Below are positions 407 to 7,751 of a stretch of 7,751 nt of DNA, one piece after another. The stretch is taken from NCBI GenBank assembly GCA_021826795.1, contig JAKAYM010000084.1, positions 1 to 7,751 of the forward strand, given 5' to 3'. This stretch comes from Thermoplasmata archaeon (lineage in GTDB: Archaea; Thermoplasmatota; Thermoplasmata; Thermoplasmatales; Thermoplasmataceae). Each line of letters begins with the position of its first letter. The first letter of the stretch is position 1. The notes below the pieces were generated by a model. That model was not told where the DNA came from and made no database searches. It saw nothing but the letters and a program-made list of their open reading frames with translations. The position numbers were made by a program, and so were the translations under genes.

Positions 407-1039
407 TTATTTATCCTGTCCCGCAACCACATGATTTTTGACAAATTTAAGTGTTGAAAACGAATCCCTCTCCATTTCATCAAGGTGTTCCCTTATGATT
501 TTCAGGTTTGATTTGAACCGCGGTATCATGATATTTTCAATAGCATTGGACCTTCTATTTGTTTTATCTATCTCATTAAGTAGTTTTCGCATGGAAGATT
601 CCTTCTGTGCAACTACTAAAAGTTCATTGAATATCCTGTCAAAAATTATCATGGCATCGTATATTGACGCAGGTACAGATGTTGCCATATACTGACTGTC
701 CATAATTTTTTTCCCTATTTCTGCCGACATTTCAGGAATTTTTACACCCATAATATTTTTCCCGCCTATTTTTATTTCAGGTGAAGAGAACATATATGAT
801 ATCCTCTCTATTTCCAGCGTGCCGTCAATAATTTCTGCCATTCTAATGGCATTCAATCCATTTTCTATATCATTCTTTATATTTTCCTTTAGACCTTTTA
901 TTTCATTGCTTATCTTGAAAAATTCCATGACAAGGGATTGACGTTTCATTTTAAGGAGTTCAAGTCCTCGGGAAGCTACTTTCACCCTCTTTTTCGTATT
1001 TATCAATTCAATTCTGGTCAACCTGATATTGTTTGCCAT
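407..1039 (-). CDS. atpD: A-type ATP synthase subunit D (central rotor shaft)
   Basis: The 210-residue product fits subunit D, the long antiparallel helical hairpin that forms the central rotor shaft inside the A3B3 hexamer and, with F, carries torque to the C subunit and the Ao ring in the membrane. The N-terminal family signature is visible: NIRLTRIELINTKKR (residues 4 to 18), then ASRGLELLKMKRQSL (22 to 36), matching the conserved A-rG-LLK-KR-L block. The C-terminal half is again a long basic and acidic helix with RRSNAIENIMIPRF, also typical of the family. The length is close to the usual 205 to 215. I chose ATG 1039 because it overlaps the atpB stop as TAATG and GGGAG lies five bases upstream. 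The frame is open for 29 more codons to 1126, but that extension runs through atpB. The gene is followed after one base by the small membrane ORF. Confidence 0.95.
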   Translation of the reverse strand: MANNIRLTRIELINTKKRVKVASRGLELLKMKRQSLVMEFFKISNEIKGLKENIKNDIENGLNAIRMAEIIDGTLEIERISYMFSSPEIKIGGKNIMGVKIPEMSAEIGKKIMDSQYMATSVPASIYDAMIIFDRIFNELLVVAQKESSMRKLLNEIDKTNRRSNAIENIMIPRFKSNLKIIREHLDEMERDSFSTLKFVKNHVVAGQDK

Positions 1040-2415
1040 TAGTTCTCCCACTTTCCATATTTTTGAATATGTGCGGATTTCACCTTTTTCATTTCCTCCT
1101 TGGGCAGTATTGAAAGCATATCCCATCCCAGATTCAGCGTTTCAATAATTGACCTGTCGGTATTTCCCTGGTTTACATATTTACCCTCAAAATCCTCTGC
1201 AAACTGGAGATATTTCTTGTCAGAATCGCTCAATGCCTCCTCTCCTACAATTTCACTGAGCGCCCTGGCATCCTTACCCTTTGCATATGACGCATAGAGC
1301 TGATCGGCAAGACCCCTGTGATCTTCCCTGGTATGGTCAGCACCGATTCCCTGATTCATTAACCTGGATAATGATGAAAGCACATCAACTTCAGGGTATA
1401 TGTTTTTCCTGTTGAGGTCCCTTGAAAGTGTGATTTGTCCCTCTGTTATATAACCAGTTAGATCTGGCACCGGATTTGTGATATCATCGCCTGGCATTGT
1501 AAGTATGGGTATCTGTGTTATGGATCCCTTTCTACCCTTTATTTTTCCTGCCCTTTCATATATGGTGCTTAGATCAGTATACATATATCCGGGGTATCCC
1601 CTTCTTCCAGGTATCTCTTCCCTTGATGATGATATTTCCCTGAGAGCCTCACAGTAATTGGTCATATCTGTAAGTATAACCAGCATGTTCATGTCCTTTT
1701 CATATGCCATGTATTCTGCAGTTGTCAGTGCAACTCTAGGAAGTATGATCCTGTCCATAGAAGGATCAGAGGCCAGATTCAGAAATATAACCGATTCAGA
1801 GAGGGCTCCTGAACTTTCGAACTGTTTCATGAAGTAATTTGCCTCCTCACTAGTTATTCCGATAGCACCGAACACAACACCGAATTTTTCATTTCCATTC
1901 AGTGTCTTTGCCTGCCTCGCAATCTGTGTTGCCAGTCTGTTATGTGATAAACCTGCACCTGAAAATATTGGAAGTTTCTGGCCCATGACCAGTGTATTCA
2001 TTCCATCGATTGTTGAAATTCCCGTTTCAATAAATTCGCTGGGTTCTTCCCTGGAATATGGATTTATTGCAGCACCTGTTATATCCACCTTATCCCTTGA
2101 ATAAATTTTTGGTCCCTTATCTATTGGTTCGCCGAATCCATTGAATATTCTTCCAAGCATGTCATCTGATACGGGAAGTTTGAACGTATCTCCAGTAAAT
2201 GACACACCTGTGCTGTTCGGGCTCATACTCGTGGTAGATCCAAAAACCTGGACAACCGCAACCCCGTTCCTTGTTTCCAGGACCTGACCCTTTACCCTTT
2301 CACCGTTATCCAGTATGACATTGACAATCTCGTTATATGACGCATTTTTAACATTGTCCACAAATAGAAGCGGACCATTAATCTGTGAAATGGATTTATA
2401 TATAATATCAGACAC
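1039..2415 (-). CDS. atpB: A-type ATP synthase subunit B (non-catalytic nucleotide-binding subunit)
   Basis: Subunit B alternates with A in the cytoplasmic A3B3 hexamer; it binds nucleotide but does not catalyse. The family pattern is clear in 458 residues: an N-terminal beta-barrel start ([14 protein letters not shown]), the degenerate P-loop region [15 protein letters not shown] ending near residue 159, the Walker-B-like stretch [18 protein letters not shown] (about 245 to 262), the [14 protein letters not shown] block, and [11 protein letters not shown] (about 348 to 358), which holds the arginine facing the neighbouring catalytic site. The absence of GKT in the P-loop separates it from subunit A. 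The start is uncertain among GTG 2424, TTG 2421 and GTG 2415. I prefer GTG 2415: GGAG lies ten bases upstream, and the protein then begins close to YKSIS as is usual. It overlaps the atpA end by eight bases. It has no intein and is intact. Confidence 0.96.
1045..1049 (-). promoter_or_regulatory. Shine-Dalgarno GGGAG before atpD
   Basis: GGGAG lies five bases before ATG 1039 and is encoded within the last codons of atpB (the Gly-Lys-Trp-Glu-Asn end). It supports ATG 1039 over the in-frame upstream ATG at 1126. Confidence 0.6.
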
Positions 2416-5400
2416 TCTCAACACTCTCCATTATATTGTTATATTCATTATTTATTTCCTTTATAACATCGTTGTAAAACTTATTAAAATCTTCTTCCTT
2501 GATCTCTTTCATCCTTGATATTTTCATTCTAACCGGCAATGTTGCTGTCTGTGTCACTTTTAATCCAGCATCTATGGACTTTTCCTGCATTTCATTGAGT
2601 GTTTTAATAATCATTAGCATTTCATACTGCTTATTTATTGAACAGTAAGTATCTATGTCATCAAAGGCATTCTGCTGGAGGAAATCTTCCCTTATGATCT
2701 TGGCAATATCAAGAACATTTTTCTGTTTTTCCGGAAGTGAATCATATCCAACAAGCTGCACTATTTCCTGCAGTTCAGACTCCTTCTGAAGTATGCCCAT
2801 CATAAGTGCATGCATCTGTGGCCATTCTGGATTTATATTGGATTTAAACCAGCCTGAAAGCGAATCAAGATAGAGTGAGTAACTGTTCAGCCAGTTGATT
2901 GATGGAAAATGCCTTCTTGATGCCAGGGAAGCATCCAGTGCCCAGAAGACACGTGTAACCCTCAAGGTATTCTGTACCACAGGGTCTGACAAATCCCCAC
3001 CGGGCGGTGAAACAGCTCCTATGAGCGTGATTGAACCTGTTCTCTTATCCTGCGGTATTATCTGTGCATTTCCTGACCTCTCATAAAATTCAGATATCCT
3101 TCTGCCAAGATATGCCGGATAACCCTCCTCTCCCGGCATTTCTTCAAGCCGTCCAGAAATTTCCCTTAAAGCCTCTGCCCATCTGCTTGTTGAATCAGCC
3201 ATTAGGGCCACATCGTAACCCATATCACGGTAGTACTCGGCTATGGTAACTCCTGTATAAATACTGGCTTCCCTTGCTGCCACGGGCATATTCGATGTAT
3301 TTGCTATTAAAATTGTTTTTTCCATTAAAGGTTTACCGCTTTTCGGATCCTGCAATTCAGGGAAGGTTGTAAGAATTTCGGTCATTTCATTGCCTCTCTC
3401 ACCACATCCGACGTAAACAGTTATATCTGCATCGGACCATTTTGAGAGTTGATGCTGAATTACGGTGTTATGCAACAGTATAGCACCATCTCCTCCTATA
3501 AAATTACTTCCAAAATCTGGAGTGGTTACATCATAAACATCAAAAGGACCGGTTATTTCTTCTACTGAATCAATTCTGTCAAAGTAAATAAATTCAAGAG
3601 AGTCCGATAGATACTTTAACATATTAACATCTTCATTAATCTCTTCCTTATTATTTATAAGAATTGTCTGGGCAAATTTATTGAATGAATAAACACTCAT
3701 ATTTTCATTATTGCTTGTATAATTGGTAATTTCGACCATATTTGATTTTAATTTATTGTAGCTAGAATTTGCTCTGTATAAACTATCTATTTTTCGTGCA
3801 CCAAACGGAACCAGATCAATGGCTGTATATGTATTCTTTTTAGAATCTATATATTTTTCAATGTTTTCTATTTTATGGTATTTTTCTTTGTCCTGAGCTA
3901 TATTTAAATAGAATTTTTTAAGTTCATTTAAACCTCTTATAAATATTCTATATCTATAATTTTTGCTCAGACTTTCATTCTTTTTCACAGAGTGCAATAT
4001 ACCGAATCTTGTTAATAGATATGATAGTGATACCGACAACTTTTTGCTTGCAGTGGATAGTTCTATTTGCCCTTTATAATAACTGCCATCACCAAGATAA
4101 TATCCTTTTAAAAATGCCGATATAACCTTATCATTTGATTTCATTATTATTTCTGGTACTTCCTTATCACAAGCCGATTTTCCTGGTATTAATTTTCTTA
4201 TAAACTCAGATAATACAATACTATTTACGATTAAATTATCTTTTTTGTTTTCCTGTTTTTCAATTTTTCCATTTAAGTTAAAAACCTTTTTCAGCAAATA
4301 TTGGGCTCTTTCAATTATCTTCTCGTCAGAATTTGTAATTACAAAGGTGCTTTTGCCTCTTATATACCCCTCTGCAATATAAAATCCCAGCAGTTCTGAT
4401 AAATCCTCGGAAACATAATCCGGTACTGTTACAATATTGCCTTTTCTATTGCCCCTTAAGCATTTAATGTCCGGGCGCTTTAAGTTAAGTTCGTCGTATA
4501 TGGTTTTTATCCAGTTTAACTTCGGTGCCGGATTATTTTCAGTTCTGGTGATCTGATTTAAAATTACATCATTAATTACATTTTTTAGAAGTTTTCTATT
4601 TTCCTTTGTTATCTCTTTAAGTTTATTTTTAATTTCATTGTCGGCTGCACTGGATTCATCAAATAAAGAGTAAACATCTATATGTTTATATTTTTCCTCT
4701 GTCTTGAATTTTCTTATTGAAACTATGTAATCTCCAGGTTTTAAATATTCTGCCTCTGTTTCCACTATACTTCCTTCCTCATTAAGTCTAAATAATTTAT
4801 GAATCGGAGTTACCTTAACCTGCTTACCAGTCCTTGTTTTTATCTTTAATAAAGAATCGCTTTTCCCTTTGTATATATAATCGGATTTGCTTTCAGAAAC
4901 TTTCCCATCATAAAACGAGTATATTTTCAGTGGCGATTTAAGTTTTATAAGGGTCTCGTTTTCATCCTGATATTCGATTTCGCCTTTAGATGCCGCATTT
5001 TCATAGACTTTTTCAATTGTCTGTATGCTACCATCAGCTAAAAGCAATGGCGTATCTCCAGAAACACATTTACCAGATCCGAATGGGCCTGGTACTGCCA
5101 CTGTACCACCCTTTGCAACAGGGAAAAATGAGTCTATTACCCTCTGACCTGTGATAAGCGGTATTTCAGGTGCGAATTTTAGGAAAACCTTTCTGGCCTG
5201 CCTTACAGGCCATATCTGCTTTAATTTTACCTCAACTACCTTATTTTCAGCTTGAATTGTACATACAGTATCTGATACCCTGAATTTGCCTGCCTTGATA
5301 GTTTTTACTACTCCGGAAACTTTGTACGGAACCATAATTTTATGGGTAATTATGTCCGTTTCCTTTACCGTGCCCAGTATGTATCCCTCTTCGACCTCAT

Positions 5401-5779
5401 CACCCTCTTTCAACACAGGTTGAAACTCCCATTCCTTTTTCTCATCCAGTGGCGGTGCACTTGCACCTCTGACTATGAAGTCACCGGTCTCGGACTGTAT
5501 AACATCTAGGGGCCTCTGTATTCCATCATAGATAGATTTTAGAAGCCCAGGGCCGAGTTCAACGGATAATGGCTTACCTGTAGATATTACAGGTTCTCCT
5601 GGCTTAAGCCCGCTGGTATCCTCATATACCTGAATGGTAAATCTGTTTCCAACGATCTTTATTACCTCTCCTACAAGACCCAGTTTACCTACACGTACCA
5701 CATCAAACATTTTCCCATCAAGATCAGTTGCTATTACCACAGGACCGGATATACTGTATATTTTACCACTATTTTTCAT
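2408..5779 (-). CDS. atpA: A-type ATP synthase catalytic subunit A precursor, containing an intein
   Basis: This is the catalytic ATPase/ATP synthase subunit of the A1 sector. The 1123-residue precursor has an N-extein (1 to 237), an intein (238 to 771) and a C-extein (772 to 1123); the spliced protein is 589 residues, normal for the family. The N-extein shows the beta-barrel ([13 protein letters not shown]), the bulge region unique to A subunits (about 100 to 190), and the first part of the P-loop, GPFGSGK at 231 to 237. The C-extein resumes with TVIQ, completing GSGKT, then CGERGNE at 792 to 798 with the catalytic Glu and Arg, Walker B ending at VALMAD862 followed by [15 protein letters not shown], and the [13 protein letters not shown] block. 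Before splicing the P-loop is split, so the precursor should be inactive. ATG 5779 directly follows the atpF stop, and GGTGAT in the last two sense codons of atpF lies three bases upstream. The end overlaps atpB by eight bases. No frameshift was seen. Confidence 0.98.
2411..2428 (-). repeat. Tandem 9-bp repeat at the atpA/atpB junction
   Basis: On the minus strand GAGAGTGTT (2428 to 2420) is followed directly by GAGAGTGTC (2419 to 2411), differing only in the last base. It encodes Glu-Ser-Val-Glu-Ser-Val, the C-terminus of subunit A. The second unit carries the preferred atpB GTG start and the first overlaps its ribosome binding site. It may be a small local duplication or chance. Confidence 0.6.
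2426..2429 (-). promoter_or_regulatory. Shine-Dalgarno GGAG before atpB
   Basis: GGAG lies in the last codons of atpA, ten bases before GTG 2415. It is only one base before GTG 2424, too close to serve that codon, so it favours the shorter 458-residue form of subunit B. Confidence 0.45.
3467..5068 (-). mobile_element. Full-length class 1 intein with LAGLIDADG endonuclease, inserted in the atpA P-loop
   Basis: A 534-residue in-frame insert sits between Lys237 and the Thr of the Walker A motif. In intein numbering, block A is [13 protein letters not shown] with Cys1 as nucleophile. Block B is near 70 to 91 with T87-P-I-H90. Block C/DOD1 is [11 protein letters not shown] at 226 to 236 (acidic E233). 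Block D is near KEVPEII (302 to 308). Block E/DOD2 is [11 protein letters not shown] at 319 to 329 (D327). Block H is near 348 to 361, block F near [11 protein letters not shown] (509 to 519), and the end is AILLHN with His533 and Asn534. The +1 residue is Thr. All splicing residues are present, so it should excise itself and ligate the exteins. The site is the one I recall as VMA-b, used by Thermoplasma and Thermococcales inteins; the Thermoplasma acidophilum one is, from memory, a mini-intein of about 173 residues with similar block A, B and F sequences. Hand-counted GC is 27% (3661 to 3720) and 30% (4141 to 4200), against 47% (5101 to 5160) and 42% (3061 to 3120) in the exteins. Confidence 0.97.
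3599..4708 (-). other. Homing endonuclease insert of the intein (approximate limits)
   Basis: This is about residues 121 to 490 of the intein, the part that splits the N- and C-terminal halves of the splicing domain. Both dodecapeptide motifs are present (4361..4393 and 4082..4117) and each keeps an acidic metal-binding residue, Glu in the first and Asp in the second, about 94 residues apart as in monomeric LAGLIDADG enzymes. Its expected role is to cut an intein-free atpA allele so that the intein is copied in. The stretch before motif 1 (about 121 to 222) and the one after block H (about 370 to 490) are lysine- and asparagine-rich and contain no motif I recognise; they may carry DNA-recognition parts. 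Whether it still cuts cannot be told from sequence. The limits are estimated from where similarity to mini-intein sequence recalled from memory stops and resumes. Confidence 0.82.
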
Positions 5780-6088
5780 TTAATCACCAATATCAATTCC
5801 TAATATTCTTTTTGCCAGATCATATACTGATTCCTCTTCTTTAATCCCCGGAAGCGGAATAAATATTACAAGTGGATCCATTGAACCGGCATACTCATTT
5901 ATTTCATCAACCTTTAAATTCTTCTGGAAGGATTGTGATGCTAATATAACATTATATTTTTTAGATTTATATAATTCTCTCAGGAGTTTTGCACCATCTG
6001 CAGAATCAGCCATGAAAGTATCATTTACTCCCACAAGTTTAAACCCCGTAATGAGTTCTTTTTCTCCGATAATACAAAGACTAGACAT
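5780..6088 (-). CDS. atpF: A-type ATP synthase subunit F (central stalk)
   Basis: Subunit F binds the foot of subunit D in the rotating central stalk and helps couple A1 catalysis to rotation. The 102-residue length is normal. The N-terminus CIIGEKELITGFKLVGV (residues 5 to 21) matches the family start, in which a beta strand ending I/V-G is followed by a TGF-L-G motif. Residues about 46 to 80 give the second strand pair (YNVILAS and PLVIFIPLPG), and the C-terminal helix EESVYDLAKRILGIDIG is also typical. ATG 6088 follows the atpC TAA directly with no gap. GAGG lies twelve bases upstream, which is a weak ribosome binding site. The stop abuts the atpA ATG, so F sits tightly between C and A. 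There is no truncation or unusual residue. Confidence 0.95.
   Translation of the reverse strand: MSSLCIIGEKELITGFKLVGVNDTFMADSADGAKLLRELYKSKKYNVILASQSFQKNLKVDEINEYAGSMDPLVIFIPLPGIKEEESVYDLAKRILGIDIGD
5783..5788 (-). promoter_or_regulatory. Shine-Dalgarno GGTGAT before atpA
   Basis: GGTGAT is formed by the last two sense codons of atpF (Gly-Asp) and is followed by TAA and then ATG 5779. The spacing of three bases is short, but the match is full. The layout suggests that ribosomes ending atpF restart at atpA. Confidence 0.6.
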
Positions 6089-7150
6089 TTATATCAGCAT
6101 CCTCTCTATTATATTACTATCAAGATTATATGACTTACCTATTATAATAGCTCTTAGATTGTCTCTTTCTCTTTCGGCGGACAGTATATAAGCAAATATA
6201 TACTGGGAGGCAGTATCGCTTAGCATAACAGGAACGTACTGGTGAAACAGAGCGCTTCTCATTGCCGCCTCAAATAAACTTAAATTCCTGTTTTCCCTGT
6301 AATAATCTATTGATTCGCTTATATTAAAGTGCTTGAATACAGAAAGCAGTTCAACAACATCACCTGATCTGAAAATATCGGCAAGTGCCTGCTTTGAATA
6401 ATTACCATTTTCTATAATGTTTTTTTCAATCTTTTCATAAGCTACTTTCAATTCAAGCGCCTTGGCAAGTGTCATTATATTTTTCAAATCAATTACGCTC
6501 TTAATATATTTGATTATTTGCCCCTCATCTCCATTGTAAAATAATGCTCTTTCTACCAGATCATTGTAATATTTATAGTCCATTGAAGAAAGCAGCATTG
6601 AAGTGTCCCCGGTCTTTTTGTAATCCTCCAGATCTTTTAAAAGATAGTTATAACCAAAATTCAATAGGTAATTAACTACCGAGTCCACATCATTTTTTTC
6701 CAGCAACACCCTGAAATCATCACTGCTGAGATTGCCTGCAAATATTCCCAGAGGCACATCCCTGAAACTCATTATGAAGCCGTCACCGGATTTTATATCA
6801 TGATGTATTACCTTCGAAGTTATAATCGCCTTTATGGTTTCTATGTCCCATTTAGATACATAGGTTTTCATAAACGATTTCATCGGTGGAGGGATGGCGA
6901 ACAGTGCAAGTTTAGAATTTTTTATCACATGCCTGTTTATTGCAGTTAAAATGATCTGTACATCATCGTCACTTAATGGTGTAGCCTTGTCAATATCTTC
7001 TCTGTACGACGTTTCATATAACTTCAACCGTATGTCCTTTATATCGAGTTCCAGAAGAGACTTTATAAAAGTATCATTGAGATAGTCATTGAAATGTATT
7101 TTTAATCTTCCATAGCTCCCAGAATATGTAGTGTTTATAAGAATCACCAC
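6089..7150 (-). CDS. atpC: A-type ATP synthase subunit C (rotor socket, AC39/d family)
   Basis: Subunit C is the funnel-shaped, mostly helical protein that seats the D/F shaft on the membrane c-ring; it is homologous to eukaryotic V-ATPase subunit d. The 353-residue, nearly all-helical product fits in length. The family traits seen are the early TYSGSYGRLK (the Y-x-x-Y-x-RL start, residues 8 to 17) and the strongly conserved YVSKWDIETIKAIITSK near 96 to 112, which matches the KWD-EN-K block of the family. Divergence is high elsewhere, as is normal for this subunit. The start is GTG 7150, overlapping the atpE stop by one base as TAGTG; GTG 7147, the next codon, is equally possible. GGTGAT lies across these codons and so does not separate them. 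The stop is followed directly by the atpF ATG. Confidence 0.93.
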   Translation of the reverse strand: MVILINTTYSGSYGRLKIHFNDYLNDTFIKSLLELDIKDIRLKLYETSYREDIDKATPLSDDDVQIILTAINRHVIKNSKLALFAIPPPMKSFMKTYVSKWDIETIKAIITSKVIHHDIKSGDGFIMSFRDVPLGIFAGNLSSDDFRVLLEKNDVDSVVNYLLNFGYNYLLKDLEDYKKTGDTSMLLSSMDYKYYNDLVERALFYNGDEGQIIKYIKSVIDLKNIMTLAKALELKVAYEKIEKNIIENGNYSKQALADIFRSGDVVELLSVFKHFNISESIDYYRENRNLSLFEAAMRSALFHQYVPVMLSDTASQYIFAYILSAERERDNLRAIIIGKSYNLDSNIIERMLI

Positions 7151-7719
7151 TATTTAATATTCTCATAAAGGTACGTCTCTATGTCATATGAAACGGAATC
7201 AAATATGCTGCTCAGTCTCATATCTGCTTCTTTTTTTCCATCCTCGCTTCTGGATATAATTCCGGACCTAATGGTTTTATCAACTTGGAATTTTACAGAA
7301 TTTGAAAATTTAAGATTCTCCAACTTCTCCTTATCACTTTCTGAACAGTACACGGTGAATTTTTTTTCCAGTTCTTTTTCAGATTCGCTTAACATTAATT
7401 TCAGAAGTTCCGGATAATTAGATGATTTATTCAGTGATGTAACATATGATTTTAAACGTTGCATTGTATTGTTTAGAATCTCTTTTTTCCGATCATCAAT
7501 AATTTTTTTTGATTGCAGTTTTATTGAATCTTCAGATTGTCTCATAATATTTTTTATATCGTTTTCAGATTTTACCTTATAATCCTGTTTTATTCTGGAC
7601 AGTTTGTCGTTGCAGGCTTTGGTAATATCCTGTATTTTTTCTGCATAATTATCTCTGATCTGTTTTAACTCCGATTCCGTAGTATTTTGAATTTCATTTA
7701 AAATATTTTCAAGAGACAT
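7150..7719 (-). CDS. atpE: A-type ATP synthase subunit E (peripheral stalk)
   Basis: Subunit E forms the peripheral stalk with H and caps the top of A3B3, acting as stator. The 189-residue product has the expected two parts. Residues 1 to about 100 form a long charged helix (NEIQNTTESELKQIRDNYAE and onward) with no proline, for the coiled coil with H. Residues about 103 to 189 form a small globular domain with the family motif region SGIISRSEDGKKEADMRLSS (about 151 to 170), equivalent to the usual GG-x-x-x-x-s-x-DG-x-i stretch, ending in a helix. The length is normal. I chose ATG 7719; the frame runs three codons further to TTG 7728, giving Met-Val-Phe-Met, which is less likely. No clear Shine-Dalgarno is seen before either start. 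Only 32 bases lie upstream in the window, so it cannot be told whether this is the first gene of the operon. Confidence 0.92.
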   Translation of the reverse strand: MSLENILNEIQNTTESELKQIRDNYAEKIQDITKACNDKLSRIKQDYKVKSENDIKNIMRQSEDSIKLQSKKIIDDRKKEILNNTMQRLKSYVTSLNKSSNYPELLKLMLSESEKELEKKFTVYCSESDKEKLENLKFSNSVKFQVDKTIRSGIISRSEDGKKEADMRLSSIFDSVSYDIETYLYENIK

Positions 7720-7751
7720 AAAAACCAATTTTCATATTACATGAAGCAGTA

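Follow-up and report, generated by a model that had tools for sequence, protein, structure and literature searches.

A probably active VMA-b homing intein in the A-ATPase subunit A of a Ferroplasma-type archaeon, shared with DPANN archaea

Inteins at the VMA-b site are already known, and so are homing cycles, which consist of invasion, fixation and loss (PMC4071816, accessible text). This site lies between Lys240 and Thr241 in subunit A of P. horikoshii (PMC2814812, accessible text). The locus studied here, a stretch of archaeal DNA of 7,751 nucleotides that we call the window, raises the question of whether a full-length intein in the catalytic P-loop of subunit A has descended with its host gene or has reached it from elsewhere. 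With a probability of roughly 0.8, we consider it an active VMA-b homing intein that has been shared and moved across phyla rather than simply descended with its host.

As shown in Table 1, the window carries genes of an A-ATPase operon. The minus-strand intein of 534 amino acids lies within an ORF of 1123 amino acids (2408-5779), and the plus strand of 3467-5068 is riddled with stops. The initial annotation had reported a 534-residue insert between the Lys and the Thr of GPFGSGK/T, and this was confirmed; insertion between these two P-loop residues of subunit A marks the VMA-b site. The intein begins with CVSGDTP and ends with AILLHN. Both exteins are intact, and removal of the intein leaves 1123 - 534 = 589 amino acids, which is the length of the empty alleles in five genomes of the genus. 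Pfam matches were found to Intein_splicing (E 2e-21) and, in two stretches, to LAGLIDADG_3 (E 1.4e-22), while residues 1-93 and 510-534 matched intein_Nterm and intein_Cterm of NCBIfam, respectively, and PRK14698, the model of the intein-bearing A subunit, matched as well. There were 13 matches to solved structures, the top four of which (7qss, 7qsu, 7qst and 4o1s) are VMA inteins, and the homology to VMA-b inteins extended across both the splicing and the endonuclease domains. The claim that every class 1 splicing residue is present holds for C1, the TxxH of block B, H533, N534 and T+1, which make this a class 1 intein, but not for block F, where the window has Ser before Asn-Phe (GSNF) and 7qss and 7qst have His (HNF). 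Both LAGLIDADG motifs of the initial annotation are in place with one acid each (E233 and D327), and together with the modelled fold they indicate a LAGLIDADG endonuclease.

Judged from its sequence, this is a complete VMA-b homing intein, apparently active and apparently still mobile. The class 1 residues and the fold suggest that it would excise from subunit A after translation and join the exteins, bringing the P-loop Lys to the Thr. In atpA alleles without the intein, the P-loop codons would be the expected cleavage site of the endonuclease, and repair would then copy the intein in.

Table 1. Features of the window and their coordinates.
Feature	Coordinates	Strand	Remarks
A-ATPase subunit E, ORF as listed	7150..7728	-	PRK01194
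A-ATPase subunit C	6089..7150	-	
A-ATPase subunit F	5780..6088	-	operon neighbour, control gene
N-extein of A-ATPase subunit A	5069..5779	-	237 aa
VMA-b intein, class 1, with LAGLIDADG endonuclease (predicted)	3467..5068	-	domain, structure and motif matches
Cys1, N-terminal splice nucleophile	5066..5068	-	directly after GPFGSGK
Block B, TPIH	4799..4810	-	intein residues 87-90
Insert, intein residues 151-206	4451..4618	-	mostly helical in structure model
LAGLIDADG motif 1	4361..4393	-	11 residues; acid E233 at 4370-4372
LAGLIDADG motif 2	4079..4108	-	10 residues; acid D327 at 4088-4090
His533-Asn534, splice residues at C-terminal end	3467..3472	-	
Thr +1	3464..3466	-	second nucleophile; in the host enzyme, the P-loop Thr
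C-extein of A-ATPase subunit A	2408..3466	-	352 aa and stop
A-ATPase subunit B, ORF as listed	1039..2424	-	
A-ATPase subunit D, ORF as listed	407..1126	-	true start maybe further in

TliVMA (PDB 7qss), a VMA-b (vma-1b) intein of Pyrococcus/Thermococcus, belongs to Thermococcales hosts and has 432 amino acids, about 100 fewer than the window intein, whose residues 126-207 are unmatched when the sequences are aligned. TvoVMA (PDB 4o1s), the Thermoplasma mini-intein, has no endonuclease, and the Thermoplasma-type splicing domains fall in another clade than the window's. The Thermoplasma intein is reportedly the subject of Senejani et al. (2001), and the vma-1b intein is said to be that of Swithers et al. 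Residues 151-206 are missing in the decayed Ferroplasma copies of 471 and 459 amino acids and in many relatives of about 460. They are also missing in Micrarchaeota and Thermoplasmata inteins of about 460 amino acids with intact acids. This stretch appears to be an optional module of the endonuclease, and a role in DNA recognition would be a guess.

The window comes from a Ferroplasma-type archaeon of the Thermoplasmatales, the order that the initial annotation had suspected. It departs from G000, the genome to which it was assigned, at 34 of 7751 bases, of which 12 fall in the intein (endonuclease/C-terminal part, 3698-3957) and 6 in the C-extein (2771-3002). These differences represent strain variation, in which gene conversion may have had a part. 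Comparison of DNA identity to other Ferroplasma gave no sign of a co-conversion tract beside the intein.

A search of 117 Thermoplasmatales genomes with the intein (E 1e-10) gave matches in 38, of which 35 inteins were cut out whole; the G001 and G018 copies are broken across contigs, and G056 was left out. The 35 inteins had lengths of 520-534 amino acids in 12 genomes (including G000), 404-471 in 3, 333-369 in 9 and 174-198 in 11, so rarity had been overrated in the initial annotation. The Glu/Asp pair of the motifs is intact in five (G000, G002, G024, G090 and G026); Asp/Asp is found in G055 and Glu/Glu in G036, and the remaining 28 have lost at least one motif acid or the motifs altogether. 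Thermoplasma-type genomes carry mini-inteins of 174-186 amino acids, as the initial annotation had indicated (we take G102 to be T. acidophilum and G105 to be T. volcanium). Among the ten genomes of the window's genus, five bear an intein (G000-G003 and G008) and five are empty (G004-G007 and G009; G004 is presumably F. acidiphilum Y), and the presence of empty alleles in such close relatives is in keeping with active homing. Both acids are present in the Ferroplasma copies of the window, P0004 and P0005, and both acids and residues 151-206 are gone in G003, P0007 and P0008. The exteins of P0018 (database name Ferroplasma sp. V-type ATP synthase subunit A) share 89% identity with those of the window, which is one ground for assigning the window to Ferroplasma. 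At the same site, P0018 has an intein 64% identical, which unlike the window's has 422 amino acids, Asp/Asn with the second acid lost, and no residues 151-206. The G002 intein is intact and that of G008 is without the first acid; both stand outside the window's lineage.

One site in one archaeal order thus presents, side by side, alleles that are full-length, damaged in their catalytic residues, part-deleted, mini or empty, and the loss of the endonuclease can be traced there as the initial annotation had proposed. The stages of decay would be loss of the acids, loss of the insert, partial deletion of the endonuclease, mini-intein and empty site, and the VMA-b locus offers a usable test of such decay. 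One full-length copy of 526 amino acids (L113/L097, ASS_A1, G017) has both catalytic acids replaced (Q and G), and its endonuclease, though full-sized, is probably dead. In 15 Diaforarchaea genomes, five single-intein genes were reported with a detectable endonuclease in 40%, and two multi-intein genes with an endonuclease in none of four inteins; two DPANN genomes had one intein gene (PMC10643990, accessible text).

Genome contigs were scanned using 20 aligned junction fragments as the query, which gave 155 relatives, and the best 80 were retained (L124 and L159 were left out of the parsed relatives and P0015 out of the parsed proteins); a scan of the contigs with the window intein as single query gave no match. 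Protein relatives, denoted by P numbers, were scored among the 7994 candidates with the most words in common. Almost all sequences near the window come from metagenomes. After WH5.bin18 (G003) and UBA567 (G001), the top relative among the best 80 of 155 was L102, a contig of the MAG Nanoarchaeota TL1-3.bin47 from the same DPANN order as Candidatus Parvarchaeota L105 (G119). Its intein is the nearest to the window's outside Ferroplasma, and the archaeon that carries it is very small and probably a symbiont. The initial annotation had missed this DPANN copy, and also the discordance with the host gene. The intein and the exteins of L102 are 65% and 63% identical to those of the window, respectively, while the intein and the exteins of G002, from the window's own genus, are 43% and 85% identical, respectively; two genomes of the genus bear an intein at this low level. 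L102 and L104, two DPANN of one order, share 55% of the intein and 83% of the exteins, and P0005, whose exteins are 98% identical to those of the window, bears a full-length intein only 80% identical, so the window's close relatives are not all empty alleles. P0006, which equals L102 in intein and exteins at rounding, stands for 12 member sequences. Like the window, P0012 (Candidatus Parvarchaeota) and L102/P0006 carry full-length VMA-b inteins of the lineage described next, but their hosts are DPANN and their exteins only 62-63% identical to the window's.

A whole-intein tree was built from 39 hand-chosen rows, and a quick tree of 108 rows added 69 (named loci of at least 440 amino acids and proteins up to P0060 of 420-539). 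The endonuclease-only tree excludes rows below 420 amino acids and hence Picrophilus, a label that rests on P0075 (database name Picrophilus oshimae). Support values quoted here are starred except for 89/93, and p values are not strict, several clade tests having been picked after the first tree was seen. In the 39-row tree, lineage I comprises the window, WH5.bin18, two Picrophilus-type and five Parvarchaeota-type DPANN inteins (100/100), the latter from L102 and four further contigs. Lineage II comprises the other Ferroplasma (TL2-1.bin13 and TL1-4.bin55) with further Thermoplasmatales and adjoins three Micrarchaeota rows (96/94). Lineage I was recovered in the endonuclease-only and splicing-only trees (100/99 each) and in the 108-row tree (100), whose forks, with midpoint root, agree with the outgroup-rooted tree (99 and 99); comparing splicing-domain and endonuclease trees had been one of the checks proposed initially. 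AU tests on the inteins rejected Ferroplasma (p 6.9e-47) and Thermoplasmatales (p 7.2e-4) as single clades. The extein tree of 67 rows, in contrast, grouped the Thermoplasmatales (99/96), set the window beside the empty G006 and G007 and the L102 exteins within a DPANN clade, and lineage I as an extein clade was rejected (p 1.6e-79). An intein phylogeny so at odds with the host gene is what active homing would produce. One intein lineage is common to some Ferroplasma, Picrophilus and Parvarchaeota-type DPANN by something other than plain descent with the host, and the trees show that it crossed between Thermoplasmatales and DPANN. In the splicing-domain tree, the window joins Ferroplasma, Picrophilus and Parvarchaeota-type DPANN (13 rows, 100/99), and the Thermoplasma minis join other minis (7 rows, 96/95). 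The window intein is therefore not the mobile form of the Thermoplasma mini-inteins, contrary to what the initial annotation had supposed.

Synonymous distances bear on the age of the intein. Between the window and G003, dS was 0.48 for the intein vs. 0.86-2.84 for seven other operon segments. Between the DPANN contigs L105 and L106, L104 and L106, and L104 and L105, it was 0.12, 0.33 and 0.35 for the intein vs. 0.35-0.83, 0.40-1.44 and 0.33-1.16 for other operon segments, respectively. These distances support the view that the intein moved between Ferroplasma species. Between G002 and G008, dS was 0.11 for the intein and 0.08-0.12 for five operon genes, so the intein there is no younger than the operon; the exteins of the same pair gave 0.25-0.29. 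The extein pattern of these two subunits A (L095 and L096) would fit a replacement of the host gene on both sides of the intein.

A source of lineage I on the DPANN side is suggested by the outgroup-rooted tree, in which the inteins of Ferroplasma and Picrophilus unite (100/100) and are nested among DPANN rows as sister to L102 (95/96). Picrophilus falls within Ferroplasma, beside P0018 (89/93; Ferroplasma alone as a clade, p 0.030), so the intein was probably also transferred between these two genera. The endonuclease tree unites L102 with five Ferroplasma rows (100/98). The splicing-only tree is unlike the whole-intein tree, placing Picrophilus outside a set of six DPANN and five Ferroplasma rows (96/88) and leaving Micrarchaeota and lineage II apart, and DPANN as a single intein clade was not rejected (p 0.067, 0.061 and 0.080). 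A DPANN donor is therefore no more than slightly favoured, by the whole-intein and endonuclease trees, and the DPANN side as the older reservoir is given odds just better than even, which we lowered somewhat because the splicing-domain tree lacks that pattern.

In the DPANN order of L102, subunit A was matched in 27 of 32 genomes, 10 of which carry an intein (cut by contig ends in G144 and G150), and the other 17 have frames of 567-606 amino acids and were taken as empty. The uninterrupted site was cut out from 10 of these 17, and four others have a P-loop (GAGK or GTGK) that continues straight into the C-extein. When the 24 bases at the centre of the site are compared, the window differs from the DPANN empties G129, G133, G142, G130, G146 and G149 by 2, 4, 3, 4, 12 and 7 bases, and from the Ferroplasma empties G006, G007, G004, G009 and G005 by 4, 4, 7, 8 and 5 bases, respectively. 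Physical contact between cells would be a plausible route. Cytoplasmic bridges and tubes were reported to join ARMAN and Thermoplasmatales cells (PMC4110969, accessible text), and physical interaction with some Thermoplasmatales is stated to be known for both Micrarchaeota and Parvarchaeota (PMC5864196, accessible text). A partnership of Ferroplasma with Parvarchaeota is not named in the accessible text of PMC4110969, PMC5864196, PMC5498576, PMC7779479, PMC12302457 or PMC10354927, so this route is only inferred. No paper on intein passage between DPANN and Thermoplasmatales was found in the intein literature, mostly without subscription papers, which is weak evidence of absence.

In a bolder version, which we hold only tentatively, attached DPANN would be a reservoir that repeatedly re-infects Thermoplasmatales hosts with VMA-b inteins, in lineage I from Parvarchaeota-type DPANN to Ferroplasma and Picrophilus and, more weakly, in lineage II from Micrarchaeota-type DPANN to other Thermoplasmatales and again to Ferroplasma. 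It was marked down because the splicing-only tree supports neither the clade of Ferroplasma and Picrophilus nor the adjacency of Micrarchaeota and lineage II, which has starred support in the whole-intein tree only. The strongest rival, given a chance a little short of even, is a real transfer by another path: a third acidophile, a virus, free DNA, or Thermoplasmatales as donors to DPANN. This would agree with the unrejected DPANN clade and with the splicing-only tree, which does not nest Ferroplasma and Picrophilus in DPANN; VMA-b inteins also exist in other phyla (Mahella and Aerophobetes, among the best 80 of 155), and gene transfer has been argued for from Cuniculiplasma-related lineages to the Micrarchaeota-type symbiont Mia14, i.e., from host to symbiont (PMC5498576, accessible text). 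However, the lineage I rows in the trees are all Ferroplasma, Picrophilus or Parvarchaeota-type, the outgroup-rooted tree has Ferroplasma and Picrophilus within the DPANN set, and a viral carrier was rejected after one scan in which seven viral stretches fitted the pattern and none encoded a relative.

The endonuclease could already be inactive despite its intact motifs, with the intein merely inherited, which we regard as unlikely. Relatives without one or both acids (G003, G008 and G017) and the share of window-G000 differences falling in the intein would fit this, but the window, P0004 and P0005 retain both acids, the synonymous distances make the intein younger than its host, and dN/dS was 0.27 for the endonuclease against G003, itself decayed, and 0.20 for residues 356-534 against G001. 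Vertical inheritance, from one VMA-b intein in the Thermoplasmatales ancestor that Thermoplasma stripped of its endonuclease, that some members lost and that the window kept, could draw on the number of intein-bearing genomes in the order and on the several genera spanned by lineage II, but it is highly improbable given the rejected Thermoplasmatales and Ferroplasma clades, the two lineages inside one genus and the position of the Thermoplasma minis; shared descent with the latter was ruled out by the AU tests and the splicing-domain tree. A mis-binned or chimeric DPANN contig is just as improbable an origin of the phylum crossing: L102 is a metagenome contig with a coverage of 4.6, but DPANN-like genes flank the locus on both sides, the exteins sit inside a DPANN clade, and the other lineage I contigs and the members of P0006 repeat the finding.

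Contamination behind the DPANN match was rejected on the neighbouring genes and the extein tree. Against its near kin L104, L105, L106 and L108, the subunits B, C, D and E of L102 were 85-88, 70-71, 82 and 53-56% identical, respectively; for its upstream genes, compared with L104 and L106 only, identity was 81-93%. Against five Thermoplasmatales contigs, the same subunits were 62-65, 30-36, 42-45 and 23-31% identical, respectively (subunit B 62% for the window's contig), and against three more distant DPANN contigs the values ranged from 26 to 69%. By these identities, L102 is a DPANN contig.

The intact form of the intein is tied to DPANN from a different phylum, among them some whose contact with Thermoplasmatales cells has been reported. 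The VMA-b locus can also test whether archaeal symbionts and their hosts pass DNA to one another, an intein that was transferred and keeps its frame intact in both partners being a clean marker. If the DPANN side were indeed the reservoir, exchange of DNA between the two partners would leave its record in a homing intein, and a new round of homing would begin each time a host population has purged the intein.

Inteins of two other genes served as controls for the synonymous distances. For the SufB intein of Ferroplasma, the synonymous difference was not below both extein halves in five of six pairs, and in the sixth it was 0.72 vs. 0.78 and 0.73. Four of these six pairs approach saturation, and the pairs are non-independent, the SufB of G000 being nearly that of G004. 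For the RIR1 intein, it was below both extein parts in two of six pairs (G001-G003 and G001-G006). Owing to these controls, the low VMA-b dS is not taken as a general trait of inteins, although the contrast is imperfect. The RIR1 genes compared were those of G001 (L254), G003 (L255) and G006 (L253), and this intein may also be moving. The SufB of L245 (G000:C70) has 98-100% protein identity to that of G004 with a dS of 0-0.08, and contig G000:C70 may be mis-binned in G000.
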